This document shows, piece by piece, positions 10,966 to 61,649 of a stretch of DNA of 64,000 nucleotides. The stretch spans positions 49,211 to 113,210 of the IMG/VR virus record IMGVR_UViG_3300025424_000296; one strand, given 5' to 3'. Each line of letters begins with the position of its first letter. The first letter of the stretch is position 1. The notes under the pieces are model-generated. The model saw only the letters and a list, made by a program, of their open reading frames with translations, was not told the origin of the DNA and searched no databases. Origin of the DNA: a virus. Made by a program: the position numbers and the translations under genes.

Positions 10966-12525
10966 ATGCAAATTAATAGTATAATAATTGTAGGCGGGGG
11001 ATCATCAGGATGGATGACTGCTGCTCTAATTTCAAAATTACTACCTGAAATTAATTTATCACTAGTAGAATCTAAACATATACCTATCATCGGCGTCGGG
11101 GAATCAACTTTATCAAGTATTAACTCATATTTGCGAAGACTTGAAATACATGATGATCAATGGATGAGTAAATGTAATGCTACTTATAAAACATCTATTA
11201 GATTTACTAATTTTTTTGAACAGGGTAAATCATATCATGACGTATTAAAATATCTAGAGGTTCCATTTCCCATACCAGGTAATTTTGGAATTACAATATT
11301 TAATCTATTATGCCTTAGATTTCCTGACGAATTTAGACCAGAAGATTTACCTAAATTTGCAGATGACACTTGGCAAATGATAGAAAATAACAGGTACACC
11401 GATGATCCTGGTCCAATGAGTTGGGATACTAAAAAAGAAAAAGCATATCATTTTGATGCTTATAAATTTGGATTGGTATTAAAAGATTTATTAGCCATTC
11501 CGAATGGAACAACACACATACAAGACGATGTATTAGAAGTACAAACTGATAAATTTGGTGTTAGCGGACTTGTGACTAAAGAACATGGAATATTAACAGC
11601 CGACTTATACATAGACTGTACAGGATTTAAGTCGTTATTGCTAGGTGAAACATTGGATACCCCTTTTAATAGGTTTGATGATACGCTGTTAAATAATAAA
11701 GCTGTAGTTACCAACATACCATATCTTGATAAAGTTAATGAATTAACCAGTTATACTGATTGTACAACCATGCCAAATGGTTGGCTATGGACTATCCCTA
11801 CATGGGATAAACTCGGAACAGGATATGTTTATTCAGATAAATTTGTTGATAATGAAACTGCAAAAAAACAATTTATAGACACTCTGAGATCTCGATATGG
11901 AGACAGAGTTAACGAATGTGAATTCCGTTACATTGAATTCACTCCCGGTGTGAGGGATATACCATGGAATAAAAATGTCGTCGGTATTGGACTAAGTTGT
12001 GGATTTATAGAACCACTTAGATCAACCGGACTTCAGGTTACACATGATATGGCAATAACATTAACTGATATATTAATTAAAAACAGTAGGAAAATAGGTA
12101 GTATTAATAAAGAAATTTATAATTTTAATGTTAAAGTACTCTTGCACAATGCTAGAGATTTTGTATCTTTACATTACGCATTATCTAAAAGATGCGACAC
12201 AGATTATTGGAAACACGCAGTAAATGATGTAAGTTATTTTAAGGATAATGATCTTTTTAAACAATTTGCATATTCTGGAACTAGTAATGTATTGAATAAA
12301 TTTAACAGTAATGATCAAATGTTTAGAACGTATGCTAGTTCTGGATATAATAGAATGACAGAAGCTGATTTTAAAATTTTATTAGACGATAATCCTGATT
12401 TAGATAGAGATTTACAAACTGTTAAAAAGATATGGACAAGACGGCATCAAGAAATCGGAGCATATGTAAAAACGTTGCCTACTACAGCTGAATTTTTAAA
12501 GAAAAATATATATAATACCGATTGA
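10966..12525 (+). CDS. Flavin-dependent (tryptophan-type) halogenase
   Basis: The 519-residue product carries all hallmarks of the family: FAD-binding 'VGGGSSG' (residues 9-15), 'IGVGEST' (42-48), a Lys in 'NATYKTSIRF' (Lys75) matching the catalytic lysine of PrnA/RebH enzymes, the diagnostic Trp-x-Trp-x-Ile-Pro motif as 'GWLWTIP' (272-278), and the glutamate of 'GFIEPLRSTGLQ' (Glu349). These enzymes use FADH2, O2 and halide to make hypohalous acid, which travels to the Lys and halogenates an aromatic or other electron-rich substrate. A cyanophage member (VirX1) has been characterised and prefers iodide; this protein is a plausible relative, but halide and substrate cannot be read from sequence. 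A flavin reductase is not seen nearby and may come from the host. It is co-transcribed with the unknown protein at 10201. Confidence 0.92.
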   Translation: MQINSIIIVGGGSSGWMTAALISKLLPEINLSLVESKHIPIIGVGESTLSSINSYLRRLEIHDDQWMSKCNATYKTSIRFTNFFEQGKSYHDVLKYLEVPFPIPGNFGITIFNLLCLRFPDEFRPEDLPKFADDTWQMIENNRYTDDPGPMSWDTKKEKAYHFDAYKFGLVLKDLLAIPNGTTHIQDDVLEVQTDKFGVSGLVTKEHGILTADLYIDCTGFKSLLLGETLDTPFNRFDDTLLNNKAVVTNIPYLDKVNELTSYTDCTTMPNGWLWTIPTWDKLGTGYVYSDKFVDNETAKKQFIDTLRSRYGDRVNECEFRYIEFTPGVRDIPWNKNVVGIGLSCGFIEPLRSTGLQVTHDMAITLTDILIKNSRKIGSINKEIYNFNVKVLLHNARDFVSLHYALSKRCDTDYWKHAVNDVSYFKDNDLFKQFAYSGTSNVLNKFNSNDQMFRTYASSGYNRMTEADFKILLDDNPDLDRDLQTVKKIWTRRHQEIGAYVKTLPTTAEFLKKNIYNTD

Positions 12526-18415: not shown

Positions 18416-18439
18416 TACACGGTGATAATGGAGAGTAAC

Positions 18440-20137
18440 ATGGAATACAAGGCCCCAGTTGATAGTGTTTTATTTCTACTACGAGATGTGTTAAAATTTG
18501 ATAGTGATATTACTGAAGCTATTTTAACTGAGGCTGCTAAATTAGCCGAGGAATCAATTGCTCCTACTAATCAACAGGGCGACGAAGCGGGATGTTTCTT
18601 AGTCAATGGACCAGGATTAGAACGCCCAGAAGTGGTAACACCGGCATCATTTAAAGAACCATGGAAGCAATTTTGCAAGGGTGGTTGGCTGGGATTATCA
18701 GTACCCGAAGAGTATGGCGGACAGGGATTACCATATACCATTGCTTGTGTTATTAATGAGTTTGTATCCAGCGCCAATATGGCTTTAAGTCTTTATCCCG
18801 GTCTGACTCGCGGTGCTATTCAAGCATTGCTAGAGGTAGCAACAGAGGAACAGAAACAACAATTTATTCCCAAAATGGCCACCGGTGAGTGGACAGGTAC
18901 TATGAACCTAACAGAACCGCACTGTGGAACTGATCTGGGATTGCTTAAAACCAAAGCAACAGTTAGTGAGAATGGTACATATAACATAACTGGACAAAAG
19001 ATCTTTATCAGTTGTGGCGAACACGATCTCAGCAAGAATATCATTCACCTTGTGCTGGCAAGAGTAGAAGGTGATCAACCGGGGACAAAAGGTATTAGTT
19101 TATTCATTGTTCCCAAAATGATTGATGATCAGTATAATGCAGTATCGTGTGGCTCTATTGAACATAAGATGGGTATTCACGGGTCAAGTACCTGTGTTAT
19201 GAACTATGACGGGGCCGTTGGGTATCTTGTAGGTGAACGTGGTAAAGGTTTAAATGCCATGTTTATCATGATGAATGAAGCGCGACTAGGAGTTGCAGTA
19301 CAGGGATTATCACAAAGTGAATTGGCTTACCAAAATGCTGTTGCATATGCTAAAGATAGACTCCAGGGGCGTTCGCTTACTGGTGCAAAGTTTCCGGACC
19401 GAGCAGCCGATCCTATTATTGTTCACCCTGATGTGCGTCGTATGCTTATGGATATTAAGGCTGTAAATGAAGCTGGACGTCTTTTGATATTAGAAGCAGC
19501 TTTGCTATGTGAAGATAAGTCAGATGCTGCACAAGACAGATTAGGATTGATGACTCCGATTCTTAAAGGTCTTCTTACAGATTTGGGATTCGAAAATGCT
19601 GTAAAGGCACAGCAGGTATTCGGCGGACATGGTTATATTCGAGAATGGGGTATGGAACAAATTGTTCGTGACGCTCGTATTGCTCAAATATACGAGGGTG
19701 CCAATGGTGTTCAAGCTATGGATTTAATTGGGCGTAAACTTCCAAAGAATATGGGCCGTGCAGTTAAGAACTTTTTTGATGAAAATGAAAAGATTCTCAT
19801 CGACTTCATGCTTGATCCGCTTACAACAGTATCTCCTATAGCGACAGATGTATATGGAGCATTAAACGACCTAAAGGCAGCAACTAAATGGTTGATGCAA
19901 AATGCACTTAAAAATCCCAATAATGCTGGATCTGCTGCTTATGATTACATGTACTTGTTTGGTATTGTGTTGCTGGGACTTGCGCATGTTAAGATAGTTG
20001 CTGCCACTGATGATGCGGATAGACACATAACAGCCAAATATTTCATTGAACGTATTTTACCAGAAACTAAATTACGTCTCTCCCGTATCCAAGCAGGATC
20101 AGGTACAATGATGTCATTGAGTGACACTGGTTTTTGA
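18440..20137 (+). CDS. Acyl-CoA dehydrogenase (long proteobacterial type)
   Basis: Starting at ATG 18440 (GGAGAG upstream), the 565-residue product begins MEYKAPVDSVLFLLRDVL, the typical N-terminus of the roughly 590-residue acyl-CoA dehydrogenases. It has 'WLGLSVPEEYGGQGLPYTIA' (N-terminal domain), 'TMNLTEPHCGTDLGLLKTKA' and 'ISCGEHDL' (middle beta-domain, FAD contacts), 'KMGIHGSSTC', and 'QQVFGGHGYIREWGMEQIVR', then 'IAQIYEGANGVQAMDLIGRK', which holds the catalytic base glutamate. It uses FAD to make trans-2-enoyl-CoA and passes electrons via ETF. The long subfamily includes DmdC (methylmercaptopropionyl-CoA dehydrogenase of DMSP degradation) and fatty-acid enzymes; sequence alone does not separate these. 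As a phage gene it suggests boosting of fatty-acid or DMSP catabolism. No other beta-oxidation gene is in the window. Confidence 0.92.
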   Translation: MEYKAPVDSVLFLLRDVLKFDSDITEAILTEAAKLAEESIAPTNQQGDEAGCFLVNGPGLERPEVVTPASFKEPWKQFCKGGWLGLSVPEEYGGQGLPYTIACVINEFVSSANMALSLYPGLTRGAIQALLEVATEEQKQQFIPKMATGEWTGTMNLTEPHCGTDLGLLKTKATVSENGTYNITGQKIFISCGEHDLSKNIIHLVLARVEGDQPGTKGISLFIVPKMIDDQYNAVSCGSIEHKMGIHGSSTCVMNYDGAVGYLVGERGKGLNAMFIMMNEARLGVAVQGLSQSELAYQNAVAYAKDRLQGRSLTGAKFPDRAADPIIVHPDVRRMLMDIKAVNEAGRLLILEAALLCEDKSDAAQDRLGLMTPILKGLLTDLGFENAVKAQQVFGGHGYIREWGMEQIVRDARIAQIYEGANGVQAMDLIGRKLPKNMGRAVKNFFDENEKILIDFMLDPLTTVSPIATDVYGALNDLKAATKWLMQNALKNPNNAGSAAYDYMYLFGIVLLGLAHVKIVAATDDADRHITAKYFIERILPETKLRLSRIQAGSGTMMSLSDTGF

Positions 20138-24157: not shown

Positions 24158-26440
24158 TTAAATTTCTCCGTTATTTACTGTATCCAGTAATTCAAACTCT
24201 TCTGTATCTGACAGCTCAGCTGTTTCCATATATTCGAATTCTAATTGATCATCGTTAACATGTACTGTTACAGCACCGCCATTTTTAAGACGTCCAAATA
24301 GCATTTCTTTGGCAAGAGGTTTCTTGATATTTTCCTGTATAACTCTGGCTAGTGGCCTTGCACCCATGTTGCGATCAAAACCTCTTTTGATAAGCCATTC
24401 TTTAGTAACTGAATCTAGTACAATATTAACTCTCTTTTTGCTACTGAGTTCGTTCATTTGATTTATAAATTTGTCAATGATTTTATTCATGTTTTCTTTA
24501 GATAGCTTGTTGAATCTCACAATACCATCCAGTCTGTTACGGAATTCTGGTTTAAAGTAACTGTTGATAGCATTAATGTCTTCGTCTGTGCGCTCTGTAC
24601 TACCAAATCCTATAGCAGATCGTTCCATATCTGCTGCTCCGAGATTACTGGTAAAGATAACGATAGCATGTCTAGCACTTGCAACTTTACCATTTTGGCC
24701 AGTTATGATACCACTGTCCATGACTTGTAAGAAAATGTTATAAACATCCGGATGTGCTTTTTCAATTTCGTCAAATAGTAATACACAGTGCGGATTTGTT
24801 TCTAGTGTATTAATCAATATGCCAGATCCAGCAGACCCGTCACTATAGCCCACGTAGCCCGGAGGAGATCCAATCAGTTTGCTAACAGCATGTCTTTCTT
24901 GGAACTCACTCATATCAAATCGCACAAATTCTACACCCAGACTTTTGGACAGTTGTTTTGCTAATTCTGTTTTACCTACCCCACTAGGACCGCTGAATAA
25001 AAAAGATCCAACAGTTTTATCTGCTTCTCTGAGTCCACTTCTGCTGAGCCAGATCATGCTTGACAGTGTTTCTACTGCGTCATCTTGTCCAAATATGGCA
25101 CCTTTGAGATCTGCATCAAGTTTTGCAAGCTTATCAGCTTCGGAAGTTTTAATTGTAGCCACTGGAATTTTAGCTACTCGACCAACTTCAGCTTCAATTT
25201 CTTTTTTGGTAATATTTTTAATTCTTTCATATTCTGGCCTAATTTTTTGCCAAGCAGCAGAACTATCAATTATATCAATGGCTTTATCTGGTAAGAATTT
25301 ATCATGAATATGCTTAGCTGTTAACTCTACAGCAGCATCAAGTGCTGCGATATCATAGGTCACATCGTGATATTCTTCATAGTATTTGGCAACACCTCTG
25401 AGAATACGTTTAGCATCTTCGATACTGGGTTCATGAATATTTAATTTTTGAAAACGACGTACAAGAGCACGATCTTTTTCAAAATGTTTACGGTATTCAT
25501 CCATTGTTGTTGAGCCAATACAATGAATTTCACCTCTACTCAGAGGCGGCTTCAACATGTTAGCTGCATCAAGTGACCCATTGCCACCGCCGGCATTACC
25601 GGCGCCCATGATCATGTGAATTTCGTCAATGAACATAACAGCGTCTGGTAGACTACAAAATGCCTTAATAATGGCTTTCATACGTTCTTCAAAATCGCCG
25701 CGGAATTTAGTACCAGCTACTAGTGTACTGATATCCACACTCCAAATGGTTTTATTTAATAATGTTTCTGGAACTGATTTTTCTGTAATCCTTTTGGCAA
25801 GACCTTCGATTATCTGAGTCTTACCTACGCCTGCATCGCCAGTCATTACTACATTATGTTTGTTACGACGTGCTAAAATCTGCGTAATCTGTTCAACTTC
25901 TCGTTCACGTCCAATAAGCGGATCAATTTTTCCGTTTTCAGCCTTGCGATTGAGGTTAATGCAGAAGGTTTCTAGTGTTTCTATTGCTTCGGTTAGATCC
26001 ATCTTTTCAGAATCTGCAGCTTGACTTTTATTGATAATATCTATGATAGCTTCTTTACTAGGGCCGTGCTTGTCTAGAAAGTATGCTGCATGACTATCTG
26101 TTGTTCCATATATAGCCAGTAATAAATCCACCGGTCCAACTTCGTTTCGACCACTGAATATGCTCTGAGTTTTGGCTTTCTTAACCACATTCATTAATAA
26201 TTGAGTGTGTCTTGGACTAGAAGAATTATCTTGTACTATCACATGATTATCCGGCTCATCTAAATAATCAAATGTGTCTTTGGCAACTGCTTCTGGATTA
26301 CCATTGGCTTTTTTCATTAATTTAACTAATTCTTGATCATCTAATAATGCAGCCAGTAGATGTTCAAGTGTCACCAATTCATGATGACGAGCAGAAGCTA
26401 ATTGATAACTATGCTGGACAGTCTGCTCAAAGGTTTTCAT
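24158..26440 (-). CDS. clpA: ClpA-type AAA+ unfoldase
   Basis: The 760-residue product has full ClpA architecture: Clp_N repeat domain (about 1-145, starting MKTFEQTVQHSYQLASARHH), first AAA+ module with Walker A 'GDAGVGKTQ' (about 200) and Walker B 'AVMFIDEIH', and a second module with 'GPSGVGKTEL' (about 487) and 'LLFDEIEKAHPDV'. It lacks the ClpB middle domain. An Ile-Gly-Phe tripeptide at residues 610-612 stands where ClpA has its Ile-Gly-Leu ClpP-docking loop, so docking to a protease is possible. No clpP is in the window, hence it may redirect the host ClpP. It overlaps the deformylase gene by 4 nt (ATGA), showing an operon: dnaJ-like, def, clpA. Confidence 0.95.
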   Translation of the reverse strand: MKTFEQTVQHSYQLASARHHELVTLEHLLAALLDDQELVKLMKKANGNPEAVAKDTFDYLDEPDNHVIVQDNSSSPRHTQLLMNVVKKAKTQSIFSGRNEVGPVDLLLAIYGTTDSHAAYFLDKHGPSKEAIIDIINKSQAADSEKMDLTEAIETLETFCINLNRKAENGKIDPLIGREREVEQITQILARRNKHNVVMTGDAGVGKTQIIEGLAKRITEKSVPETLLNKTIWSVDISTLVAGTKFRGDFEERMKAIIKAFCSLPDAVMFIDEIHMIMGAGNAGGGNGSLDAANMLKPPLSRGEIHCIGSTTMDEYRKHFEKDRALVRRFQKLNIHEPSIEDAKRILRGVAKYYEEYHDVTYDIAALDAAVELTAKHIHDKFLPDKAIDIIDSSAAWQKIRPEYERIKNITKKEIEAEVGRVAKIPVATIKTSEADKLAKLDADLKGAIFGQDDAVETLSSMIWLSRSGLREADKTVGSFLFSGPSGVGKTELAKQLSKSLGVEFVRFDMSEFQERHAVSKLIGSPPGYVGYSDGSAGSGILINTLETNPHCVLLFDEIEKAHPDVYNIFLQVMDSGIITGQNGKVASARHAIVIFTSNLGAADMERSAIGFGSTERTDEDINAINSYFKPEFRNRLDGIVRFNKLSKENMNKIIDKFINQMNELSSKKRVNIVLDSVTKEWLIKRGFDRNMGARPLARVIQENIKKPLAKEMLFGRLKNGGAVTVHVNDDQLEFEYMETAELSDTEEFELLDTVNNGEI

Positions 26441-26916
26441 TTTGATCTCCTAGCCCTTTTTCTAGCTAAATGTAGTGTAACTTTACCCACTCGATCTGTA
26501 AAGACAATTCCTTGACAGTGATCCCACTCATGTAGAAAGCATCTTGCTTCTAGCTCCATTAGTGTTTCAGTGTGTTCATATCCTGTTTCATCAATCCAGT
26601 TTGCAACAATGCTAAATGGTCTCGATATTGGCAATTTTAACCTAGGAAAACTAAGACAACCTTCTTCCTCAGTTGACATTTCATCGGTTGTGCTTAATAC
26701 CGTTGGATTAATACAAGTACGTTTCTTACCCATACAATTCATGACAAACATGTTAAGGTCTAATCCAACTTGAGGAGCAGCTAAACCAATGCCATCCCCT
26801 TTGTTCATAACTCTGTGCATTTCTTCGAAAGTTTCTAGTAACGTTGGTATTTGCTCTAGCTCTACCAACTTAGCCGCTGTTCTTAATATGGGATCGTAGC
26901 TGTTTGTGAGTTTCAT
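26437..26916 (-). CDS. def: Peptide deformylase
   Basis: The 159-residue product has the three family motifs: 'GIGLAAPQVGL' (about residue 42), 'EEGCLSFP' (about 85, supplying the metal Cys) and 'HEWDHCQG' (His-Glu-x-x-x-His variant, supplying two His and the catalytic Glu). It removes N-formyl groups from new proteins. Phage deformylases are known from marine T4-like phages, where they are thought to keep protein processing going. It lacks the longer C-terminal extension of host enzymes. It overlaps clpA by 4 nt and follows the DnaJ-like gene after 31 nt. Confidence 0.94.
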   Translation of the reverse strand: MKLTNSYDPILRTAAKLVELEQIPTLLETFEEMHRVMNKGDGIGLAAPQVGLDLNMFVMNCMGKKRTCINPTVLSTTDEMSTEEEGCLSFPRLKLPISRPFSIVANWIDETGYEHTETLMELEARCFLHEWDHCQGIVFTDRVGKVTLHLARKRARRSK

Positions 26917-26947
26917 GTTATTACTTTGCGGCTAAAATGCAATCTTG

Positions 26948-27823
26948 TCAAGTGGTTCTTTGATCAACAAGTTCTCTTATTTTTTGTTTGAGAGAGTTGT
27001 CTAATCCAGTTGGCACAGTGATTTTAACTGTAACAATACAATCTCCGCGAGCATGTCCGTTCCCTCTCAAAGGCATTCCGCGCCCGCTAATTTTTAAATT
27101 GGTATCAGGTTGTGTACCCTCTGGTATGGTTAATCTGACTTTTTGACCATCTATACATGTTAAAGTGTGATCACATCCAATAATAGCTGACAATGCATCG
27201 ACAGTTATTTCTGTATGAAGATTTGCTCCGTTCCTGCGGAAAACAGCGTGATTTAAAATCAAAACATTTATGTATAAATCCCCAGGAGGGGCATTTGGTA
27301 TAGATCTATCACCGTGTCCCTGGTAACGTATACGGGTACCATTTTCAATACCAGCTGGTATTTCCACGTTCAAATTGTAATTTTGTCCGTTAACTGTAAA
27401 TTGTATCGGAGTGTGTTTGCCTGTAAATGCTTCTTCCAGTGTTAGATGTAGTTCAAATGTAAAATCTTTGTTACGTGCTTGACGACCGGGATGTCCAAAT
27501 CCGTGTTGATTAAAAAATTGATTAATTATGTCTTCCATACCACCACCGCCAAATTCAAAATTAAAGTTGAATCCGCCGTGTTGGAATGGATTTCCACCTG
27601 GATGCCCGCCGCCGAATTGACGCATTTGGTCATATCTGGCTCTAGCCTCAGGATCGCCTATTTCAGAATAAGCAGTGCTTATTTTTTTAAAGCGTTCTTC
27701 AGCAGCAGCATTACCCTGATTTTTGTCAGGGTGAAACTGCATTGCTAGCTTGCGATAAGCTGATTTTATTTCTTCTTGTGAGGCGTTTTCTGCAACGCCG
27801 AGAGTGCTATAATGATTTTCCAT
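26948..27823 (-). CDS. DnaJ/CbpA-type co-chaperone (type II Hsp40)
   Basis: The 291-residue product has an N-terminal J-domain with the essential His-Pro-Asp at residues 31-33 ('FHPDKNQG'), a Gly/Phe-rich linker ('GGGHPGGNPF', 'FNFNFEFGGGGMEDII'), and two C-terminal substrate-binding domains ending in a dimerisation segment. The Cys-rich zinc-finger of DnaJ is absent, so it is of the CbpA type. It stimulates the ATPase of host DnaK and delivers clients. With ClpA and deformylase downstream it forms a protein quality-control operon. Its 5' end overlaps a divergent + strand region, but the convincing start of that gene is at 27911. Confidence 0.93.
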   Translation of the reverse strand: MENHYSTLGVAENASQEEIKSAYRKLAMQFHPDKNQGNAAAEERFKKISTAYSEIGDPEARARYDQMRQFGGGHPGGNPFQHGGFNFNFEFGGGGMEDIINQFFNQHGFGHPGRQARNKDFTFELHLTLEEAFTGKHTPIQFTVNGQNYNLNVEIPAGIENGTRIRYQGHGDRSIPNAPPGDLYINVLILNHAVFRRNGANLHTEITVDALSAIIGCDHTLTCIDGQKVRLTIPEGTQPDTNLKISGRGMPLRGNGHARGDCIVTVKITVPTGLDNSLKQKIRELVDQRTT

Positions 27824-28682: not shown

Positions 28683-29732
28683 ATGGATATAATAATACCG
28701 TGTGCTAGTACTGACACAAACTTTCCAAATATGAGACCTAATTACTTGTTAGCTGACTATCTCAGCCGACGAATGTTAGAGTTGGTTGTAGAACCATATC
28801 TATCTAAATATCGTATACATGTTGTAATAACACAACAAGCTCAGGACTCTTATAATGTTGTCAAGGAGTTTGACACTATATTTGGTGATCAAGTTAATGT
28901 AGTAATACTGTCAAAATCTACATCAGGGTCTGCTGAGTCAGCTTATCAAGCATTAATAAAGTTAAATTTAGAATCAACTGCATTTATGATCCGTGAATGT
29001 ACTGGTATGTTTGCACATGATACAGTATTATCTGGTAATATTATTCATGTTGGAAGTCTAAATCACAGCATAAATTTAACAAATATCACCAATAAAGATT
29101 ATGTAAAGGCTAATGGACAGGGTTTCATTAGTTGTATAGCAGAAAAAGAGGTAATTGGTGATTTATTCTGTGCAGGGGGTTATCAATTTGAGTCTGCCAG
29201 AAAATACAAATTAGCTTACACCAATCTTTTAAAATCTAATGTAGATAAAATTTCGATTAAATCAATTGTTGATTACTATAGTGTGTCTTGGGGGGAAGAT
29301 TTTTCAGTAAATAAAGTCAGCGACTTTGTTGATCTAAGTACTATACAAGATTGGGAAGCTTTTAACGATCGTCCTACAATATTTTGTGACATAGATGGAA
29401 CTATTATACACAATCAAACACCTTATGGCGATAATAACTACGGTGCAACGCCCACAGTGTTAGAAAAGAATGTACAAACATTGAGACACTTTTTAATAAG
29501 AGGCAGTCAGATCATATTTACTACGTCAAGAACCACCAAGTGGTATGCTGAGACTAGACAAATGCTAGATAGTTTGGGTTTTCACAACTGCCAGTTGATT
29601 ATGGATTTACATCATGCAAGAAGAATATTAATAAATGATCATGCACTTACTAACCCTTATCCTAGTGCTGTTGCAATTAATATCAGACGCAATGATGACT
29701 CGTTGGATCAAATGATTGGCAAGAGGAACTAA
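28683..29732 (+). CDS. Nucleotidyltransferase-like domain fused to a HAD phosphatase
   Basis: The 349-residue product begins MDIIIPCASTDTNFPNMRPNY. The N-terminal part (about 1-215) looks like a nucleotide-sugar (GT-A) fold, with 'MRPNYLLADYLSRRMLELVV' and 'AFMIRECTGMFAHD'. The C-terminal part (about 235-349) is a HAD domain: 'FCDIDGTIIHN' has the Asp-x-Asp-Gly-Thr nucleophile motif, 'IIFTTSRTTKW' motif II and 'ILINDHALTNPYP' the acidic motif region. HAD enzymes remove phosphate from sugars or polyols. A fusion with a nucleotidyltransferase is typical of making activated sugars for surface glycans. First gene of the operon 28683-32370. Confidence 0.7.
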   Translation: MDIIIPCASTDTNFPNMRPNYLLADYLSRRMLELVVEPYLSKYRIHVVITQQAQDSYNVVKEFDTIFGDQVNVVILSKSTSGSAESAYQALIKLNLESTAFMIRECTGMFAHDTVLSGNIIHVGSLNHSINLTNITNKDYVKANGQGFISCIAEKEVIGDLFCAGGYQFESARKYKLAYTNLLKSNVDKISIKSIVDYYSVSWGEDFSVNKVSDFVDLSTIQDWEAFNDRPTIFCDIDGTIIHNQTPYGDNNYGATPTVLEKNVQTLRHFLIRGSQIIFTTSRTTKWYAETRQMLDSLGFHNCQLIMDLHHARRILINDHALTNPYPSAVAINIRRNDDSLDQMIGKRN

Positions 29733-29734
29733 TT

Positions 29735-30457
29735 ATGCAGATTCTTATCCCAATGGCCGGTGCTGGCAGCAGATTTGCAAAAGTAGGATATTCAAAACCA
29801 AAGCCATTAATAGACGTTGATGGTCTTCCGATGATCTCTAGAGTTATTGATAATCTTGGACCAGACAATGATTATATTTTCATAGTACAAAAATCGGTTC
29901 TAGATGATTATGAAAAAGATTTAATTTCAGCTACTGATTTTGCAAAATCTAGTAAATTTTTAATTGCTAATGGATTAACAGAGGGTGCTGCACAAACCTG
30001 CTTACTAGCCAAAGACTCGTTGGATATGGATTCTCCATTAATGATTGCCAATTGTGATCAAATTATGGATTGGAATTATGATCATTTTTACAAATGGTTT
30101 GACACAACATTTAGTGACGGATCAATAATCACTTTCTCAAGCATAGAACCTAACAATAGTTATGTAACTCTGAGAGAGGACGGATATATATTAGAAGCAC
30201 AAGAAAAAATAGTTATATCAGACATAGCTACCACAGGTGTTTATATATGGCGACAAGCACGAGATTTTATGGTATCAGCTGAGGAAATGATATCAAAAAA
30301 TATCAGATATAATAATGAATTTTATGTATGTCCTGTTTATAATCAAATTGTAGAGAAGGGCAAGTTAATTAACGTTTATCATATTAAAAGTCACTGGCCG
30401 ATCGGAACACCAGAAGATTTAGAAATATATTTGAAGCATAGACATGAAAGAATATAG
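29735..30457 (+). CDS. Sugar-phosphate nucleotidyltransferase family protein
   Basis: The 240-residue product begins MQILIPMAGAGSRFAKVGYS and has the signature loop Gly-x-Gly-x-Arg-Phe followed by 'KPKPLIDVDGLPMISRVIDN' (Lys of the active site), 'IANCDQIMDWNYD' (Asp metal site), 'ATTGVYIW' and 'KSHWPIGTPEDLEIYL'. Such enzymes couple NTP and a sugar or polyol phosphate to give NDP-sugar and PPi. The end 'GTPEDL' is common in capsule and lipopolysaccharide genes. It starts 2 nt after the previous stop and its end overlaps the cupin gene by 14 nt, so translation is coupled. Confidence 0.88.
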   Translation: MQILIPMAGAGSRFAKVGYSKPKPLIDVDGLPMISRVIDNLGPDNDYIFIVQKSVLDDYEKDLISATDFAKSSKFLIANGLTEGAAQTCLLAKDSLDMDSPLMIANCDQIMDWNYDHFYKWFDTTFSDGSIITFSSIEPNNSYVTLREDGYILEAQEKIVISDIATTGVYIWRQARDFMVSAEEMISKNIRYNNEFYVCPVYNQIVEKGKLINVYHIKSHWPIGTPEDLEIYLKHRHERI

Positions 30458-30773
30458 TGTAGAACAATTTAAATTAGGATGGTTTATCGGAGACTTCGAA
30501 CCCAGTGTCCTCCGAACATCTGACTTTGAAGTCTGTTATAGAATCCAGAAAAAAGGCGAGATACATAAACCACATGTTCATCCCATTGGCACAGAGTATA
30601 ACTATCTTATTCGAGGCGAAATGACAGTAAATGGTAAAAAGTTTATAGGACCTGTTATATTTGTTATAGAACCCGGGGAAGCTGTTTATCCAACGATGGA
30701 CACAGACTGCGAGTTAATTATAGTTAAGACTCCTAGCTTAGTTACAGATAAGATATTGGTAGAAGACCTATGA
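30444..30773 (+). CDS. Single-domain cupin
   Basis: The 109-residue product begins MKEYSVEQFKLGWFIGDFEP. Cupin motif 1 is 'KPHVHPIGTEYNYLIRGEMTV' with His-x-His and Glu ligands, and motif 2 'IFVIEPGEAVYPTMDTDCEL' (missing the usual His). A small metal-binding cupin in this setting may be a sugar or polyol isomerase or epimerase, or a sensor. It overlaps both neighbours (14 nt and 4 nt). Confidence 0.75.
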   Translation: MKEYSVEQFKLGWFIGDFEPSVLRTSDFEVCYRIQKKGEIHKPHVHPIGTEYNYLIRGEMTVNGKKFIGPVIFVIEPGEAVYPTMDTDCELIIVKTPSLVTDKILVEDL

Positions 30774-31903
30774 ATATTATAATTAATACAAAAGATCTTA
30801 AAAAGTATTTTTGGGTAAAGTATTGGGTATCATCAAAAACGGATCTCAATACCGCAGCACATGAAATAGCCATTGGACAGAGTATAGGTAACCCAAACAA
30901 ACGTAGTCTCTGGGAAACTGATACAATGATCAACGACTATTGTAATAAGATATTAGATACAGGTAACCTTGACCAGCCACAGGGCTATGTAGAAATAGGT
31001 TTTCCTTATGAACTATTAGATTGGCAAGAAGATGGTATAAGTCAACTGCTTTGTGTAATCATGGGCGGGCAAATGGATATTGACAACATAACCAGTTGTC
31101 GTGCAACTGATATTGAATTTGATGATAGTGTAATTGCTCCCTATTTTCTCGGTCCGCAGTTTGGTATTAGTGGTATAAGAAATCGGGTAAAAGTCCATAA
31201 CAAACCCCTATTTGGCGGTATTATTAAACCAAAAACTGGTATTACACCCAACCAGTTACTAGACATGACCAAAGAGTTAGTAGAGGGCGGTGTAAACTTT
31301 ATTAAGGAAGATGAGATACTGGGAAATCCTAGTGTTTGTAGACTACGGGATCGTGTTCCACTTATATCAAAATATTTACAGGATAAAAATGTAATCTACT
31401 GCTACTGTATAAATAGTGATCCTTTATATGTATTAGACCGAGCTAAATTTGTTGCAGAAAATGGCGGCAACGGTGTTCATGTAAATGTATGGAGCGGTCT
31501 AGGTGTTTATAAAAGTATTAGAGATTTAGATCTACCACTTTTCATACACTATCAAAAAAGTGGTGATAGAACTTTTACAAATAGTTTGCATGACTTTAAC
31601 ATAAGCTGGGATATATTGTGTAAACTTGCAGGCATGTGCGGAGTTGACTTTATACATGCCGGAATGTGGGGAGGATATTTGAGTAATACAGACGACGAGC
31701 TACATCGCACATTAGGCATACTTAGAAGTCTCGGTGTAATGCCTGCATTAAGTTGCGGAATGCATGCGGGATTAATAGCACCTATCACTGAAAGATTTGG
31801 TACAGATTGGATGGCAAACGTAGGCGGTGCAATACATGCAGATCCCGGTGGTACTCGTGCTGGTAGTTTACGAATAAAACATGCCATTGAGAATCTAAAA
31901 TGA
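30770..31903 (+). CDS. RuBisCO-like protein (RuBisCO large-chain superfamily, probably non-carboxylating)
   Basis: The 377-residue product, shorter than true large chains (about 420-480), aligns with the RuBisCO barrel. 'GGIIKPKTGI' provides Lys153 and Lys155 (spinach K175, K177). 'GGVNFIKEDE' provides Lys179, Asp181 and Glu182 (carbamylated K201, D203, E204). His260 in 'LFIHYQKSG' and His296 in 'DFIHAGMWGG' match H294 and H327. Ser328 in 'PALSCGMHAG' matches S379, and Gly352-Gly353 match the phosphate-binding glycines. The loop-6 lysine (K334), Arg295 and Asn123 are not conserved, so CO2 fixation is unlikely; this is a form IV-type protein. Known relatives act as enolases, isomerases or transcarboxylases on phosphorylated sugar acids. 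In this operon it probably builds or rearranges a polyol or sugar-acid phosphate before nucleotide activation. ATGA overlaps on both sides. Confidence 0.9.
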   Translation: MNIIINTKDLKKYFWVKYWVSSKTDLNTAAHEIAIGQSIGNPNKRSLWETDTMINDYCNKILDTGNLDQPQGYVEIGFPYELLDWQEDGISQLLCVIMGGQMDIDNITSCRATDIEFDDSVIAPYFLGPQFGISGIRNRVKVHNKPLFGGIIKPKTGITPNQLLDMTKELVEGGVNFIKEDEILGNPSVCRLRDRVPLISKYLQDKNVIYCYCINSDPLYVLDRAKFVAENGGNGVHVNVWSGLGVYKSIRDLDLPLFIHYQKSGDRTFTNSLHDFNISWDILCKLAGMCGVDFIHAGMWGGYLSNTDDELHRTLGILRSLGVMPALSCGMHAGLIAPITERFGTDWMANVGGAIHADPGGTRAGSLRIKHAIENLK

Positions 31904-32370
31904 AATTAATTTCACACCGAGGTTTGATAAATGGGCCAGATTTGCAATTGGAAAATACCGAGGATGCTATAACACAATGTTTGTTAAAAGGTCTTGAAGT
32001 AGAAGTAGATGTGTGGTTCAACGAAGATAGTAGCACTTGGTGGTTAGGTCACGATTTTCCTCAGTATAAAACTTCAAGAGATTTCGTATTCCAACTTGGG
32101 TTATGGATACACGCTAAAAATTTTGCAGCAGCTAAAGAATTAAATTCGTGTTGGAAGTCTGGCAATGTACATCTCAATTATTTTTGGCATGAGAATGACC
32201 ATAGAACATTGACAAGTCTCGGATATTGGTGGACATTTCCGCAACAAGAACTCGGTCCTACTAGTGTAGCAGTAATGCCAGAAAGATATACGCTATTAAC
32301 CGATTTACATTTATGTGTTACATGGAATTGTTATGGTGTATGCAGTGATTATATTAATAAACTGATATAA
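31900..32370 (+). CDS. Glycerophosphodiester phosphodiesterase-like protein (short)
   Basis: The 156-residue product begins MKLISHRGLINGPDLQLENT; His-Arg-Gly then Glu-Asn-Thr are the first two motifs of the GDPD family, and 'EVEVDVWF' (Glu-x-Asp) with 'GHDFPQ' (His) complete the metal and catalytic set. At about 155 residues it lacks the second half of the usual 240-residue barrel, so it is a reduced member, perhaps acting on a simple phosphodiester such as a polyol-phosphate sugar. It overlaps the RuBisCO-like gene by 4 nt and ends the operon; a small hairpin (32376-32396) follows. Confidence 0.75.
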   Translation: MKLISHRGLINGPDLQLENTEDAITQCLLKGLEVEVDVWFNEDSSTWWLGHDFPQYKTSRDFVFQLGLWIHAKNFAAAKELNSCWKSGNVHLNYFWHENDHRTLTSLGYWWTFPQQELGPTSVAVMPERYTLLTDLHLCVTWNCYGVCSDYINKLI

Positions 32371-32449: not shown

Positions 32450-33694
32450 ATGTCAAAAATTGATTTGTCTACATATGAACAAGATCCTAGTAATCCTTCA
32501 GAAATATTGAATATAGCTGGGCACTGTGCTGAGCAGGGACAACATGATTCTGCCATGTTATTTGCTGAATCAGTTTATAGGATGAATAATCTGTCAAATG
32601 AAGTAAAGGTACAAGCATTAGAACGTTTTGCAATATCCGGTTTCTATAGTAAAATACCTTCTAGAAAACTATTAGGTAAACAGGCCTGCGAATTATTAGC
32701 CATGAACAAAGATATTAACTGGAATACCAGATATGTAGCTGGTCAAAATAGCACTTGGTATGCAAGTTCATCTAATGAATTATTTTCCAACACTGTATTG
32801 AAGCATTTAGACTTTACACCGCCAGACGATTATCTTCCATTAAACCCATCTATATACAGGTGGGGTAATCAGTTATGGATGATACAACGTACGGTGAATT
32901 ATGTTATAACTCCAAGCGGTCATTATGACATGCGCGGTGACACCGCCATAAGAACTCGTAATTGGTTGTTGAAATTAAATTCTGATCTAACGGTACATAG
33001 TGCTAGAGAAATATTACCGCCAGTTGATCTTCCAGAACCACTTTATAATTTAGTAATTGGTTTTGAAGACAATAGACTATTTGTGTGGCAAGATCAGCTA
33101 TGGTGTACGTCAACTGTCAGGGAATTAAACCAACCGGGTAATTGCGAAATAGTACTATCAAGAATAGATGATACTGAAGACGGTAAGTGTCGATATAGTA
33201 ACTGGAGAGTTATACATCCAAAGGGTGTGGAATTTCAACATCAAAAAAATTGGATGCCTGTAGTAATAAATCAAGATCTAAGATTTATATATAGCAGTGA
33301 TCCTGTTAGAATCATTGATGACCAAGGTGAAATAGTTATGCAGCACGAAGCTGTTGATGCCACTGATAGTTTCAGAGGCGGGTCACAAGCTATTAGATTT
33401 AATAATGGGTGGTTGGCTATAATACATGAAAGCCATATGATGCCCGATCAACGTCGTAGATACATGCATCGATTTGTATGGTATAATGAAAATTTTGATT
33501 TAGCAGCTTATACGCCGGCATTTTATATAGCCAAACTTGGTATTGAATTTGCAGCAGGAATAGCAGAACATCCACTTACTAACAAAATAATTGTAAGCTT
33601 TGGATTAGCAGACAACGAAAGCTGGTTAGCTGAATTTGAACCAGTTTCGATACTTGCTGCATTAAAATATATCAAAAGAAAAGAATCAAACTGA
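32450..33694 (+). CDS. GH130/GH43-like beta-propeller protein with N-terminal helical repeat
   Basis: The 414-residue product begins MSKIDLSTYEQDPSNPSEIL. An N-terminal helical region (about 1-100) resembles TPR/Sel1 repeats; then a propeller domain with 'GFEDNRLFVWQDQLWCTS', 'QKNWMPVV', 'FRGGSQAIRFNNGWLAI', 'YMHRFVWYN' and 'AAGIAEHPLTNKIIVSFG', a layout seen in GH130-like proteins (mannosyl phosphorylase/mannosidase fold). It is similar throughout to residues 1-410 of the next gene. Catalytic function is uncertain, as in viruses these proteins often occur with glycosyltransferases. It probably acts on a glycan made by the phage. Confidence 0.7.
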   Translation: MSKIDLSTYEQDPSNPSEILNIAGHCAEQGQHDSAMLFAESVYRMNNLSNEVKVQALERFAISGFYSKIPSRKLLGKQACELLAMNKDINWNTRYVAGQNSTWYASSSNELFSNTVLKHLDFTPPDDYLPLNPSIYRWGNQLWMIQRTVNYVITPSGHYDMRGDTAIRTRNWLLKLNSDLTVHSAREILPPVDLPEPLYNLVIGFEDNRLFVWQDQLWCTSTVRELNQPGNCEIVLSRIDDTEDGKCRYSNWRVIHPKGVEFQHQKNWMPVVINQDLRFIYSSDPVRIIDDQGEIVMQHEAVDATDSFRGGSQAIRFNNGWLAIIHESHMMPDQRRRYMHRFVWYNENFDLAAYTPAFYIAKLGIEFAAGIAEHPLTNKIIVSFGLADNESWLAEFEPVSILAALKYIKRKESN

Positions 33695-33695
33695 T

Positions 33696-35612
33696 ATGAA
33701 TGACATAGAAACAAAGTCTCCATTAGAAGATCCTCAGGTACTATTAGGGATATGTCAATATTTCGATTCAAAAGATAAACACAATGATGTTATGAAAATC
33801 TATGAACAGTCAATGCCTATACCTCAGTTGGATAGCGTAAAAACAGACTTTCTTCGATTAGCAGCGGTCAGTGGATTTTACAGTGATTTAGACTACTATA
33901 AAAAACTAGGTAAAGAAGCTAGCGAACAGTTAATGTCTAGCCGTAAAGTTTCTGCCACTGATAGAGACTTTGCAAGGCGTAACGGTACTTGGTACAATAA
34001 TCTAATCAAAGATCTCATTCCGTCTGCCATTTTAAAAAAGATTGAATTCAATTGTCCAGTTGGATATCGTTCAACTACTCCGAGTATCACATCCCATGGT
34101 GGTAAAATATGGATGTTACAACGGTCAATAAATCTACACGATGAGAATTATAATTTTGTTGATCCGGATGCAATATGGTGGTGTACAAAAAATTACATAC
34201 TACAACTAGATAATGATTTGAATGTTGTATATAGTGAAGAAATTAAACCGCCTGCTGATATGCAATTACCTGTTAGAGGTTTTGAAGATGCAAGACTGTT
34301 TTTTCTAGGCAACGAACTTTGGTGTTCGTGCTCATCATTAGATTTCAACGAAAACGGTGTATCTCAAATGCTTACAACTAGAATAGACGGTATAGGAACA
34401 GGAGATTGCAGATTCACTAACTATCAAGTAATGAAACCCAATTTTGGTTATGGTCAAGTTGAAAAAAATTGGATGCCGTTTGTCGAAAACAATTTACCAT
34501 ATTTCATATACAATTGTGATCCTGTGATCATAGTAGATAATAACGGTCACCTGATTGATTCTCGAGCAACACATATTGCTGCTGAAAGTTATAGGGGCGG
34601 TACTCAATTATTGGAATTCGATGATGGGTATCTGGCATTGATACATGAATCACTGGACATGGATTGGGGTGTTCGTCGTTATATGCATAGATTTGTTTGG
34701 TTTAATAGAAGTTTACAACTGACAAAGTATAGCAATTATTTTTCAATTGATGAAATAACATTAGAAGTTAGTGTTGAATTTGCTGCTGGTATAACTGTTC
34801 ATCCAATAACAGATAAATTACTGATAAGTTTTGGTAAAAATGAGTTAGAGACATGGATTGTAACAGTTGATCCAGATGATGTAAGAAATGTATTGAAGCC
34901 GGCTGGTTTAGCCTGTGAAAGATTGCCATTTGATGCAGAAACATTAAAACTATTGGAATATGAAACCAACAGAGCACTTAAAGATACCGCTACGGTAGAA
35001 AAATTTACTAATTTATTAAAAAAATATAACCTGCCATTACACGTAACACCGCAGAAAAATTGGGATAACTTGATTGCAATATATCATACAGTGCTAACCA
35101 CTGACGTTGATACTCCCATAATGGATATAGCAGGAACAGCTGACTCGGCATATCTTCCAAGCTTGTATAAATTTGGTTACAGAGATTTAACCAGTATTAA
35201 CCTGTCAGAACATGAACCTGTATTAAAAGATGGTGTTGTATATCAATACGGGGACTGTACTAACACAGGTTTCCCTGATGAATACTTTGGATTTATATCT
35301 TGTCTAAGTGTTATCGAACATGGTGTAGATATTGATGGATTCTTCAGAGAATCACATAGAATACTAAAGAAAAAAGGTAGATTGTTTGTTAGTACAGATT
35401 ACTGGCAGCATCCTGTCAATACGTTTGGCAAAATGGCATATTGGAACCCAGTTGTAATATTTGATGCAGCAGGAATAAGTGACATGGTTGCTAAAGCAGA
35501 AGCACACGGATTTGAATTAACTGGACCAGCGGATTTAACTTGTTATGACAAGGCAGTACACTGGGACGAAATGGACTACACATTTATTAATTTGTTGTTC
35601 AGCAAACGGTAA
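33696..35612 (+). CDS. GH130-like propeller protein fused to a SAM methyltransferase
   Basis: The 638-residue product repeats the domain order of the previous gene (N-terminal helical part; 'GFEDARLFFLGNELWCS', 'EKNWMPFV', 'YRGGTQLLEFDDGYLAL', 'YMHRFVWFN', 'AAGITVHPITDKLLISFG') and adds a C-terminal class I methyltransferase (about 440-638) with 'PIMDIAGTADSAYLPSL', 'EYFGFISCLSVIEHGVD' and 'ESHRILKKKGRLFVSTDYW'. The two genes are a tandem duplication, with the second gaining a methyltransferase. A linked glycan-trimming and methylation activity is plausible. It starts 1 nt after the previous stop. Confidence 0.75.
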   Translation: MNDIETKSPLEDPQVLLGICQYFDSKDKHNDVMKIYEQSMPIPQLDSVKTDFLRLAAVSGFYSDLDYYKKLGKEASEQLMSSRKVSATDRDFARRNGTWYNNLIKDLIPSAILKKIEFNCPVGYRSTTPSITSHGGKIWMLQRSINLHDENYNFVDPDAIWWCTKNYILQLDNDLNVVYSEEIKPPADMQLPVRGFEDARLFFLGNELWCSCSSLDFNENGVSQMLTTRIDGIGTGDCRFTNYQVMKPNFGYGQVEKNWMPFVENNLPYFIYNCDPVIIVDNNGHLIDSRATHIAAESYRGGTQLLEFDDGYLALIHESLDMDWGVRRYMHRFVWFNRSLQLTKYSNYFSIDEITLEVSVEFAAGITVHPITDKLLISFGKNELETWIVTVDPDDVRNVLKPAGLACERLPFDAETLKLLEYETNRALKDTATVEKFTNLLKKYNLPLHVTPQKNWDNLIAIYHTVLTTDVDTPIMDIAGTADSAYLPSLYKFGYRDLTSINLSEHEPVLKDGVVYQYGDCTNTGFPDEYFGFISCLSVIEHGVDIDGFFRESHRILKKKGRLFVSTDYWQHPVNTFGKMAYWNPVVIFDAAGISDMVAKAEAHGFELTGPADLTCYDKAVHWDEMDYTFINLLFSKR

Positions 35613-35628
35613 TTTAATGGAGACTTAG

Positions 35629-36708
35629 ATGAGTACAAAGAAATTAAGAATCGGTGTTTACTGCCCTGCTAAAAATGAATTAAAGCATGTAGAACCCTGG
35701 TATGAAAGTTGCAGGAATGCTGATGTTGTAGTATGTGCTGATACGGGTAGCACAGACGGTACAAAAGAAAAGATGTTGGAACTTGGAGTAAAAGTAACCG
35801 ATTTAAGAATACTACCGTGGCGGTTTGACGACGCATTTAATTTTGCAATGGCATTGTTACCTGACGATATTGATGTTTGCATACGATTAGATTTGGATGA
35901 ACGTCTGCAGCCTGGTTGGCGGGCTGCACTTGAAGCAGCATGGACCCCTGAGACTACTCGTTTACGTTATCCATATGTTTGGAATTGGAACCCAGATGGT
36001 TCTCCCGGACGTCAATGGTACGGAGACCGTATTCATCATAGAAATGGTTTTCGTTGGATGGGAGCAACTCATGAGGGGCTGTGTTCTAGAATACATGAAG
36101 TACAGACATTTACGGACGATGTTAAAATATATCAATATCCAGATGCCAAGGATAAGAAGCATGATCTTCCTCTGTTATTAGAAGCAACTAAAGAGTATCC
36201 AACTGATGCAAGATTGCGGGCATATCTGGGTAGAGAATATTTTTATAGAGGAGAAAATGACAAGGCAGTTGAAACTTATAAAGAGTTTCTTGGCATGAGC
36301 TGGGACAAGATTGAACGAGGTCAGGCTATGATTAACCTATCAAATGCAGATCCAAAAAATAAAGTATTTTGGTTAAAGATGGCTATTATAGAAACACCCG
36401 GTCATAGAGAACCATTAACAAATCTATCTCAGCATTATTATAATAATGAGGATTGGACCAAGTGTTACAAGTATGCTATGGATGCCTTAAAGATCACAAA
36501 ACATCCTATGGATTATACTTGCACACCAGAAGCCTGGGGATACTTGCCGCATGATTTAGCCAGTATTTCTGCTTGGCATCTTGGTTTATATAAAGAAAGT
36601 ATGGAACAGGCAAAATTAGCACTAGAACGTAGTCCAAATGACAAACGATTAGAGAATAATCTTAAGATTGTGGAAGAATTCATGAATGAACGATTAACTA
36701 ACGAGTAA
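35629..36708 (+). CDS. GT2-family glycosyltransferase with C-terminal TPR repeats
   Basis: The 359-residue product begins MSTKKLRIGVYCPAKNELKH. The N-terminal GT-A domain has 'ADTGSTDGTKE' (nucleotide-binding) and 'DVCIRLDLDERLQPGW' (Asp-x-Asp metal site); 'RIHHRNGFRWMGATHEGL' supplies the acceptor side. From about residue 190 there are TPR-type helical repeats ('RAYLGREYFYRGENDKAVET', 'LSQHYYNNEDWTKCYKYAMD'). Such GT2-TPR proteins occur in large phages and giant viruses. The ATG is preceded by ATGGAGACTTAG, similar to the leader before 32450, so the three genes form a unit. Confidence 0.88.
   Translation: MSTKKLRIGVYCPAKNELKHVEPWYESCRNADVVVCADTGSTDGTKEKMLELGVKVTDLRILPWRFDDAFNFAMALLPDDIDVCIRLDLDERLQPGWRAALEAAWTPETTRLRYPYVWNWNPDGSPGRQWYGDRIHHRNGFRWMGATHEGLCSRIHEVQTFTDDVKIYQYPDAKDKKHDLPLLLEATKEYPTDARLRAYLGREYFYRGENDKAVETYKEFLGMSWDKIERGQAMINLSNADPKNKVFWLKMAIIETPGHREPLTNLSQHYYNNEDWTKCYKYAMDALKITKHPMDYTCTPEAWGYLPHDLASISAWHLGLYKESMEQAKLALERSPNDKRLENNLKIVEEFMNERLTNE

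Positions 36709-42834: not shown

Positions 42835-56136
<13,302 letters not shown>

Positions 56137-56721: not shown

Positions 56722-61649
<4,928 letters not shown>

Follow-up and report, generated by a model that had tools for sequence, protein, structure and literature searches.

We analysed a 64,000-nucleotide stretch of viral DNA (positions 49211-113210 of the 113-kb IMG/VR virus record IMGVR_UViG_3300025424_000296; hereafter the window) that encodes a 377-residue RuBisCO-like protein (RLP) within a row of five open reading frames. A sequence-only reading of the window had described the row as a nucleotidyltransferase-like/HAD fusion, a sugar nucleotidyltransferase (NTP), a cupin, the RLP and a short GDPD-type phosphodiesterase, and all five reading frames were recovered at the positions listed in Table 1. 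The last four constitute a conserved core. Their reading frames overlap by 14 nt (NTP/cupin), 4 nt (cupin/RLP) and 4 nt (RLP/GDPD), an arrangement that fits translational coupling.

Fold, active site and phylogeny of the RLP

The RLP is a genuine RuBisCO-fold protein, as had been proposed. Both Pfam domains of the superfamily were recognized above their cut-offs (PF00016, E 8e-29, 101.3 bits against 30.1; PF02788, 23.0 bits against 20.7), and an AlphaFold2 model built from a 40-sequence family alignment (predicted local distance difference test score, pLDDT, 93.7; predicted template-modelling score 0.91) matched form III RuBisCO along its entire length in a Foldseek search (E 7e-33, template-modelling (TM) score 0.88, 26% identity).

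To describe the active site, 40 RLP family members were aligned with form I, II/III and III RuBisCO, OiaX and MtnW references. In RuBisCO numbering, the family keeps K175, K177, K201, D203, E204, H327, S379 and G381, the first five being invariant, and G403 is present in 38 of the 40 members. The carbamate-site equivalents of Lys201, Asp203 and Glu204 are K179, D181 and E182 (40/40), with carbamylation itself being predicted; the other residues kept in the window protein are K153, K155, H296, S328, G330 and G353. Five positions are replaced in every member (E60 by G, T65 by N, N123 by G, H294 by Q and K334 by Y), and position 295, Arg in RuBisCO, is Lys in 39 and Arg in one. The corresponding residues of the window protein are G36, N41, G100, Q262, Y303 and, at position 295, K263. 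Pairwise phmmer alignments concur at loop 6 and at positions 292-295. The loss of the loop-6 Lys, Arg295 and Asn123 equivalents, which the sequence-only reading had noticed in a single protein, is therefore a property of the family. Its list of retained residues also stood for Lys153/155, Lys179-Asp181-Glu182, His296 and Ser328, but His260 occupies the position of RuBisCO His292 (Phe in ten members) and not that of catalytic His294.

Judged by Lys334, Asn123, Glu60, His294 and Arg295, the protein fails as a bona fide RuBisCO; it fits the broad definition of a form IV RLP, in which the fold is kept and the carboxylation residues are replaced. Six new motifs are invariant or near-invariant in the family: GQSxGNPxxR (residues 36-45), GGQxDI (99-104), FIKEDEI (177-183), HxNxWxG (237-243), QKSGD (262-266) and HxGMxGGY (296-303). 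This residue pattern suggests that Mg2+-dependent enolisation would be possible and gas addition would not.

In a 57-row IQ-TREE phylogeny, the RLP family forms a single clade (support 100/99) on a stem 0.84 long. Strong support separates this clade from forms I, II/III and III, and it also lies apart from the OiaX-type group; the RLP does not fall inside form III, a placement that would have contradicted the earlier proposal. The nearest reference branch is MtnW (96/92), a sister relation that is provisional because the tree holds few form IV references. Its sequence relationships place the RLP in a distinct clade of the RuBisCO superfamily that is predicted to be non-carboxylating.

Conserved linkage with sugar-activating genes

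Viral RLPs were clustered at 90% identity into 90 clusters, and cellular RLPs into 17. An NTP accompanies the RLP in 89 of the viral clusters, a cupin in 77 and a GDPD in 70, nearly always on the same strand, and in 68 clusters the cupin lies no more than 50 nt from the RLP reading frame. The NTP is likewise present in 16 of the 17 cellular clusters, where gene orders include GDPD-NTP-RLP-NTP (SAR11), RLP-NTP (Elusimicrobia), RLP-cupin-NTP (Sphingobacteriales) and, in Legionella, an RLP-NTP pair adjoining a LicD-family gene. Outer neighbours vary from virus to virus and comprise glycosyltransferases, SDR epimerases/dehydratases, methyltransferases and aminotransferases. HAD domains are rare (HAD2 in 8 and HADC in 6 of the 90 viral clusters), and RibB and transaldolase-like genes are present in a few RLP loci. 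The cassette contains no Calvin-cycle or small-subunit gene, and no methionine-salvage genes were seen in RLP neighbourhoods. Together, the linkage with NTP, cupin and GDPD in both viruses and cells ties the RLP to nucleotide activation of a sugar or polyol and not to carbon fixation. The proposed sugar-activation neighbourhood is thus found in many viruses and its gene order recurs in other genomes as a four-gene core, without the 349-aa fusion gene that had been counted as a fifth member; it is also not confined to viruses, as SAR11, Legionella and other cells carry it.

Three islands (L358, L365 and L374) contain in succession RibB, an APH-like kinase, two NTPs, a HAD protein, a transaldolase-like protein, a cupin and the RLP.

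Distribution

The RLP clade is widespread in lake and ocean bacteriophages and is also found in a few bacteria. A single-sequence scan of IMG/VR gave 110 confirmed RLP stretches, and an alignment-based scan gave at least 346. A prokaryote genome collection held 23 RLP loci (37-56% identical), carried by SAR11 single cells, three Legionella species, Azospirillum oleiclasticum, Elusimicrobia, Sphingobacteriales, Verrucomicrobiia and DPANN archaea; some of the small cellular contigs may themselves be viral. The loci of Legionella drozanskii, L. maceachernii and L. nautarum (L101-L103), each an adjacent RLP-NTP pair with LicD alongside, lie on long contigs, and these species offer a culturable entry point for biochemistry.

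No RLP was detected among INPHARED phage isolates by tblastn (with the window protein at 1e-5 and with a SAR11 relative at 1e-3), megablast of the operon region gave no match, and plasmids yielded only remote RuBisCOs or RLPs, every one below 60% identity. Form I-III RuBisCO was not confirmed in IMG/VR by three narrow motif scans that needed exact short peptides (one alignment of forms I-III, a single form I query and a single form III query), a result that does not show its absence.

Loci without the RLP

We also compared loci that lack the RLP, chosen through GDPD or cupin anchors. The 80 GDPD-anchored loci include an NTP in 72 cases and an RLP in 2. In RLP-less loci the NTP is usually fused to another domain, either HAD_2 (mostly without a cupin), RpiB or a C-terminal HAD (the latter two with a cupin); in nearly all RLP loci it is unfused. 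The RpiB partner, a ribose-5-phosphate isomerase (PF02502, E 1e-29 to 9e-36), was found in 16 loci, its NTP fusions standing in loci with cupin and GDPD, and in none of 194 RLP loci was it found together with the RLP. In a tree of NTPs, the RpiB fusions fall together in a single clade (99), which groups (97) with NTPs linked to the RLP in SAR11, DPANN and Verrucomicrobiia, and the C-terminal HAD fusions also nest among RLP-linked NTPs. In cultured Kyanoviridae, a homologous NTP has HAD_2 (S-CAM9) or RpiB (Bellamy) as its fusion partner; that of Synechococcus phage S-SKS1 is joined to RibB (DHBP synthase, a ribulose-5-phosphate enzyme). The theme that recurs across these partners, as far as their sequences indicate, is ketopentose-phosphate chemistry.

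A wider cassette that combines GDPD with a HAD-NTP fusion (L219-L298; phrog_3980, phrog_34507) occurs in at least 590 IMG/VR stretches and in cultured cyanophages.

Proposed role of the RLP

The interpretation towards which we lean, with modest confidence, is that the RLP is a non-carboxylating, metal-dependent sugar-phosphate isomerase or enolase (tautomerase) that feeds nucleotide-sugar synthesis; an isomerase-type role is favoured because RpiB occurs in loci without the RLP. Of the earlier proposal that a branched or acidic sugar phosphate is isomerised or cleaved, then dephosphorylated and activated, it is the isomerisation that gains from this comparison. A general HAD phosphatase step was dropped, as HAD domains occur in a small minority of clusters.

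According to this model, Mg2+ would be bound by carbamylated Lys179, Asp181 and Glu182, with Lys153 and Lys155 acting as acid/base residues, and the enzyme would enolise a keto-sugar phosphate, likely drawn from the pentose-phosphate pool, and reprotonate it at another position. The RLP and cupin would thereby supply a sugar phosphate for activation by the adjacent NTP, and glycosyl- or phosphotransferases could then use the activated sugar to modify the surface of the virion or of the host. A phosphodiester made from the product may be cleaved by the GDPD, as an editing or processing step. In the viral clusters neither a kinase nor a phosphatase is regularly linked, which suggests that the NTP uses the phosphate that its sugar already bears, and the LicD-family gene beside the Legionella pair agrees with this. 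In CDP-ribitol and CDP-methylerythritol synthesis, the nucleotidyltransferase uses the existing phosphate of its substrate. As a tentative extension, on which we would not yet insist, the entire RLP clade may have been recruited as a dedicated sugar-phosphate isomerase, a stand-in for RpiB, in the making of an activated sugar (perhaps a pentulose or tetrulose) for the glycans of phages and bacteria.

Several points weigh against an isomerase. HAD phosphatases are fused to the NTP at the same position in other loci with cupin and GDPD, so the partner enzyme there need not be an isomerase. The RpiB fusions are one clade of the NTP tree, so the exchange may have been a single event, and the loci compared had been selected by their GDPD or cupin. 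A kinase that could supply an anomeric phosphate is not regularly linked, and the NTP may act on a non-anomeric one. Finally, with H327 and S379 retained and Lys in place of Arg295, the substrate could carry a second anionic group.

This last point bears on an unlikely alternative, an OiaX- or RibB-like cleavage or decarboxylation of a keto-sugar (acid) phosphate by the RLP, after which the shorter or branched unit would be activated: His296 and Ser328 together with Lys263 could hold a second acidic group. OiaX, a decarboxylase, is the closest characterised sugar-acid RLP (profile NF042437, E 7e-32), and RibB, which removes C4 of ribulose-5-phosphate as formate, is the NTP fusion partner in S-SKS1 and accompanies some RLPs. 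However, the OiaX profile score of 110.7 bits is far below the cut-off of 700, the RLP falls outside the OiaX-type clade, and Tyr and Gln stand in place of Lys334 and His294, which OiaX-type proteins keep. RibB occurs in just 2 of the 90 viral clusters, and where it co-occurs with the RLP the two cannot simply substitute for one another.

A methionine-salvage enzyme, whether an MtnW-like enolase or a 5-methylthioribulose-1-phosphate isomerase, appears very improbable. The provisional sister relation to MtnW speaks for it, as does the adjoining cupin, since the salvage dioxygenase MtnD is likewise a cupin. Against this, the RLP scores 92.6 bits on the MtnW profile TIGR03332 (cut-off 513.6), Lys177 is invariant in the RLP family and absent from MtnW, and the genomic neighbourhood is not one of salvage: the RLP sits beside NTP, cupin, GDPD and glycosyltransferases, and the cupin itself keeps company with these and with RpiB. 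No more credible is a nonenzymatic or scaffolding role for the RLP in the glycan cassette. Several standard catalytic residues are indeed lost, but the metal, carbamate and phosphate-loop residues and the motifs GQSxGNPxxR, GGQxDI, HxNxWxG and QKSGD are (near-)invariant among proteins of 37-62% identity, as fits an active site under selection. The least credible reading is a true RuBisCO serving as a carbon-fixation auxiliary metabolic gene: the fold and the carbamylation and Mg2+ ligands are kept and viral rbcL has been reported as carbon-fixing (PMC12615777, PMC8506154), yet Lys334, Asn123, Glu60, His294 and Thr65 are lost in 40 of 40 members and Arg295 is changed in 39, the form III profile score is 160.6 bits against a cut-off of 497.45, the clade stands apart from forms I, II/III and III, and the cassette offers no Calvin-cycle or small-subunit partner.

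Viral rbcL genes and wider meaning

Known RLPs belong to sulfur salvage and to the breakdown of sugar acids. Membership in a cassette that is mostly viral and makes nucleotide sugars would, if confirmed, be a new role for a much-studied enzyme fold, and the cassette would point to an uncharacterised activated sugar; with four genes it is small and directly amenable to testing.

Viral rbcL genes are not new to the literature. rbcL has been listed as an auxiliary metabolic gene in viruses from landfill, with an 'RbcL-like' cluster (PMC12607003), from hydrothermal sites (PMC10159854) and from the Great Salt Lake (PMC8506154), and a mining-soil viral rbcL1 (25-36% identity to known enzymes) is reported to give carboxylase activity in lysate with rbcS (PMC12615777). 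We found no paper that ties a viral RuBisCO homologue to sugar activation, in line with the sequence-only reading, which knew of no described case inside a viral sugar-activation operon. If the dedicated-isomerase interpretation is correct, a share of environmental viral 'rbcL' genes would be members of the RLP clade, unrelated to CO2. Carbon-fixation annotations of viral 'rbcL' deserve rechecking against the RLP family; for virus-boosted CO2 fixation via rbcL, it bears noting that the IMG/VR scans gave hundreds of RLP stretches and, narrow as they were for forms I-III, confirmed none of those.

Partner genes and genomic surroundings

The NTP belongs to PF00483 (28.3 bits against a cut-off of 21.2), and its GAGSRF...KPKPLI motif is intact, corresponding to the GxGxRF...KPL motif of the family alignment. 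It matches phrog_3980 (E 8e-62) and PDB entry 4evw (E 5e-17), and its profile reaches 5xhw, the nucleotidyltransferase of the 6-deoxy-manno-heptose pathway (E 3e-8). The cupin matches phrog_24762 (E 6e-27), and its family profile matches a cupin annotated as mannose-6-phosphate isomerase (E 1.4e-4). The GDPD-like protein, which is shorter than classical GDPDs, gave no Pfam match on its own. Its family profile matches solved GDPDs (7e0v, E 3.9e-5), its AlphaFold2 model (pLDDT 94.9) has GDPD 2o55 as top Foldseek match in the PDB (probability 1.00, E 7e-3, TM 0.59), and the HRG, EN, ExD and HD motifs are kept, with H6, R7, G8, N19, E35, D37 and H51 invariant. Catalytic motifs and a TIM-barrel-like fold place it among the GDPDs.

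The 349-aa protein combines an N-terminal nucleotidyltransferase-like domain, in which the canonical GxGxRF loop is missing (residues 29-228 match phrog_3980, E 4e-8), with a C-terminal HAD domain that has a DIDGT motif (residues 228-307, Acid_phosphat_B/HAD matches under Pfam cut-offs). Blastp found no homologue of it in the first 81 loci apart from the window's own virus, and the gene was dropped as a core member; the same NTP-HAD architecture recurs in L219, L340, L362, L021 and L356. In two SAR11 loci (L092:9217-9954 and L096:9213-9953), the RLP adjoins a second NTP-like protein, which is degenerate, lacks the GxGxRF loop and resembles in idea the N-terminal domain of the 349-aa protein.

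Downstream of the cassette lie a protein without a Pfam or PHROG match, its partial paralogue and a GT2-like glycosyltransferase, the last of which probably uses activated sugars. Searches of the 113-kb record for the T4-type capsid family (PF07068) and for terminase (PF03237) found neither; that it is a phage is judged from tail-fibre and virion-protein matches and from the IMG/VR classification. Elsewhere in the window, the GlpD-like and acyl-CoA-dehydrogenase-like genes are metabolic genes uncommon in phage. In the related viruses L002, L003, L006 and L007, the ClpA/deformylase/DnaJ row likewise stands next to the cassette.

Table 1. Genes of the cassette and other features of the window (window coordinates).
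Feature	Position	Strand	Remark
NTP-like/HAD fusion, 349 aa	28683..29732	+	first of the five reading frames; accessory, outside the conserved core
Sugar nucleotidyltransferase (NTP), 240 aa	29735..30457	+	core gene
Small single-domain cupin, 109 aa	30444..30773	+	core gene
RuBisCO-like protein (RLP), 377 aa	30770..31903	+	PF00016, PF02788, AlphaFold2/Foldseek, residue table, tree
Short GDPD-type phosphodiesterase, 156 aa	31900..32370	+	core gene
414-aa neighbour	32450..33694	+	downstream, same direction; paralogue of N-terminal part of next gene
638-aa neighbour	33696..35612	+	C-terminal S-adenosylmethionine (SAM) methyltransferase domain, PF08241 E 2e-8
Glycosyltransferase (GT2-like), tetratricopeptide (TPR) repeats	35629..36708	+	phrog_13126 beta-1,4-glycosyltransferase E 3e-84
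GlpD-like FAD glycerol-3-phosphate dehydrogenase	4317-5771	+	by sequence inspection; no PHROG match
Tryptophan halogenase homologue	10966-12525	+	phrog_2928 E 3e-126
Acyl-CoA-dehydrogenase-like protein	18422-20137	+	by sequence inspection; no PHROG match
Bax-inhibitor-1/YccA-type membrane protein, 242 aa	20790-21518	+	by inspection; no PHROG match
ClpA-type ATPase, peptide deformylase, DnaJ-like genes	24158-27823	-	consecutive
4416-aa protein	42886-56136	+	likely tail or fibre
1627-aa protein	56766-61649	+	likely tail/fibre; collagen-like GPTG repeats; GC content rises to 0.53

Comparison with known systems

Form III RuBisCOs (Pyrococcus horikoshii 2cwx and Thermococcus kodakarensis 3a12) share with the RLP the whole-chain fold (TM 0.88-0.90), the Mg2+/carbamate ligands, Lys175, Lys177, His327 and Ser379. 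The RLP differs from them at Lys334, Asn123, Glu60, Thr65, His294 and Arg295, is 25-26% identical and forms a separate clade. MtnW, the form IV 2,3-diketo-5-methylthiopentyl-1-phosphate enolase of the YkrW type, is non-carboxylating like the RLP but has a different gene context. OiaX (3-oxo-isoapionate-4-phosphate decarboxylase) and related sugar-acid proteins are also RLPs of carbohydrate metabolism, acting on a sugar-acid phosphate; their clade, unlike the window RLP family, retains Lys334, His294 and Arg295, and they sit in catabolic loci with acid-sugar kinases and transporters. The RLP family keeps K177 and a basic 295-H327-S379 set, some of which MtnW and OiaX change.

A form IV-GOS clade named from ocean metagenomes is listed in PMC10173188, and GOS RuBisCO sequences were left unplaced in PMC1821046. 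As described in passages of these papers, the homologues are marine and altered at N123, K177, D198, F199, H327 and G404; the passages state neither viral origin nor gene context. The IV-GOS clade and the unplaced GOS groups may include the RLP family.

Also comparable are the glycan islands of cyanophages S-CAM9, S-SM2, Bellamy and S-SKS1, which like the window carry a homologous NTP and, except in S-SKS1, a GDPD, among glycosyltransferases and epimerases; Bellamy and SynMITS9220M01 have a cupin too. In these islands, unlike the window, the RLP was not found and the NTP has HAD, RpiB or RibB as a fusion partner. Lastly, GDP-/ADP-heptose biosynthesis (GmhA isomerase, kinase, GmhB HAD phosphatase and HddC nucleotidyltransferase) follows a similar logic from isomerase to nucleotidyltransferase, whereas in the cassette kinase and phosphatase are not regular and the place of GmhA is taken by the RLP and cupin.

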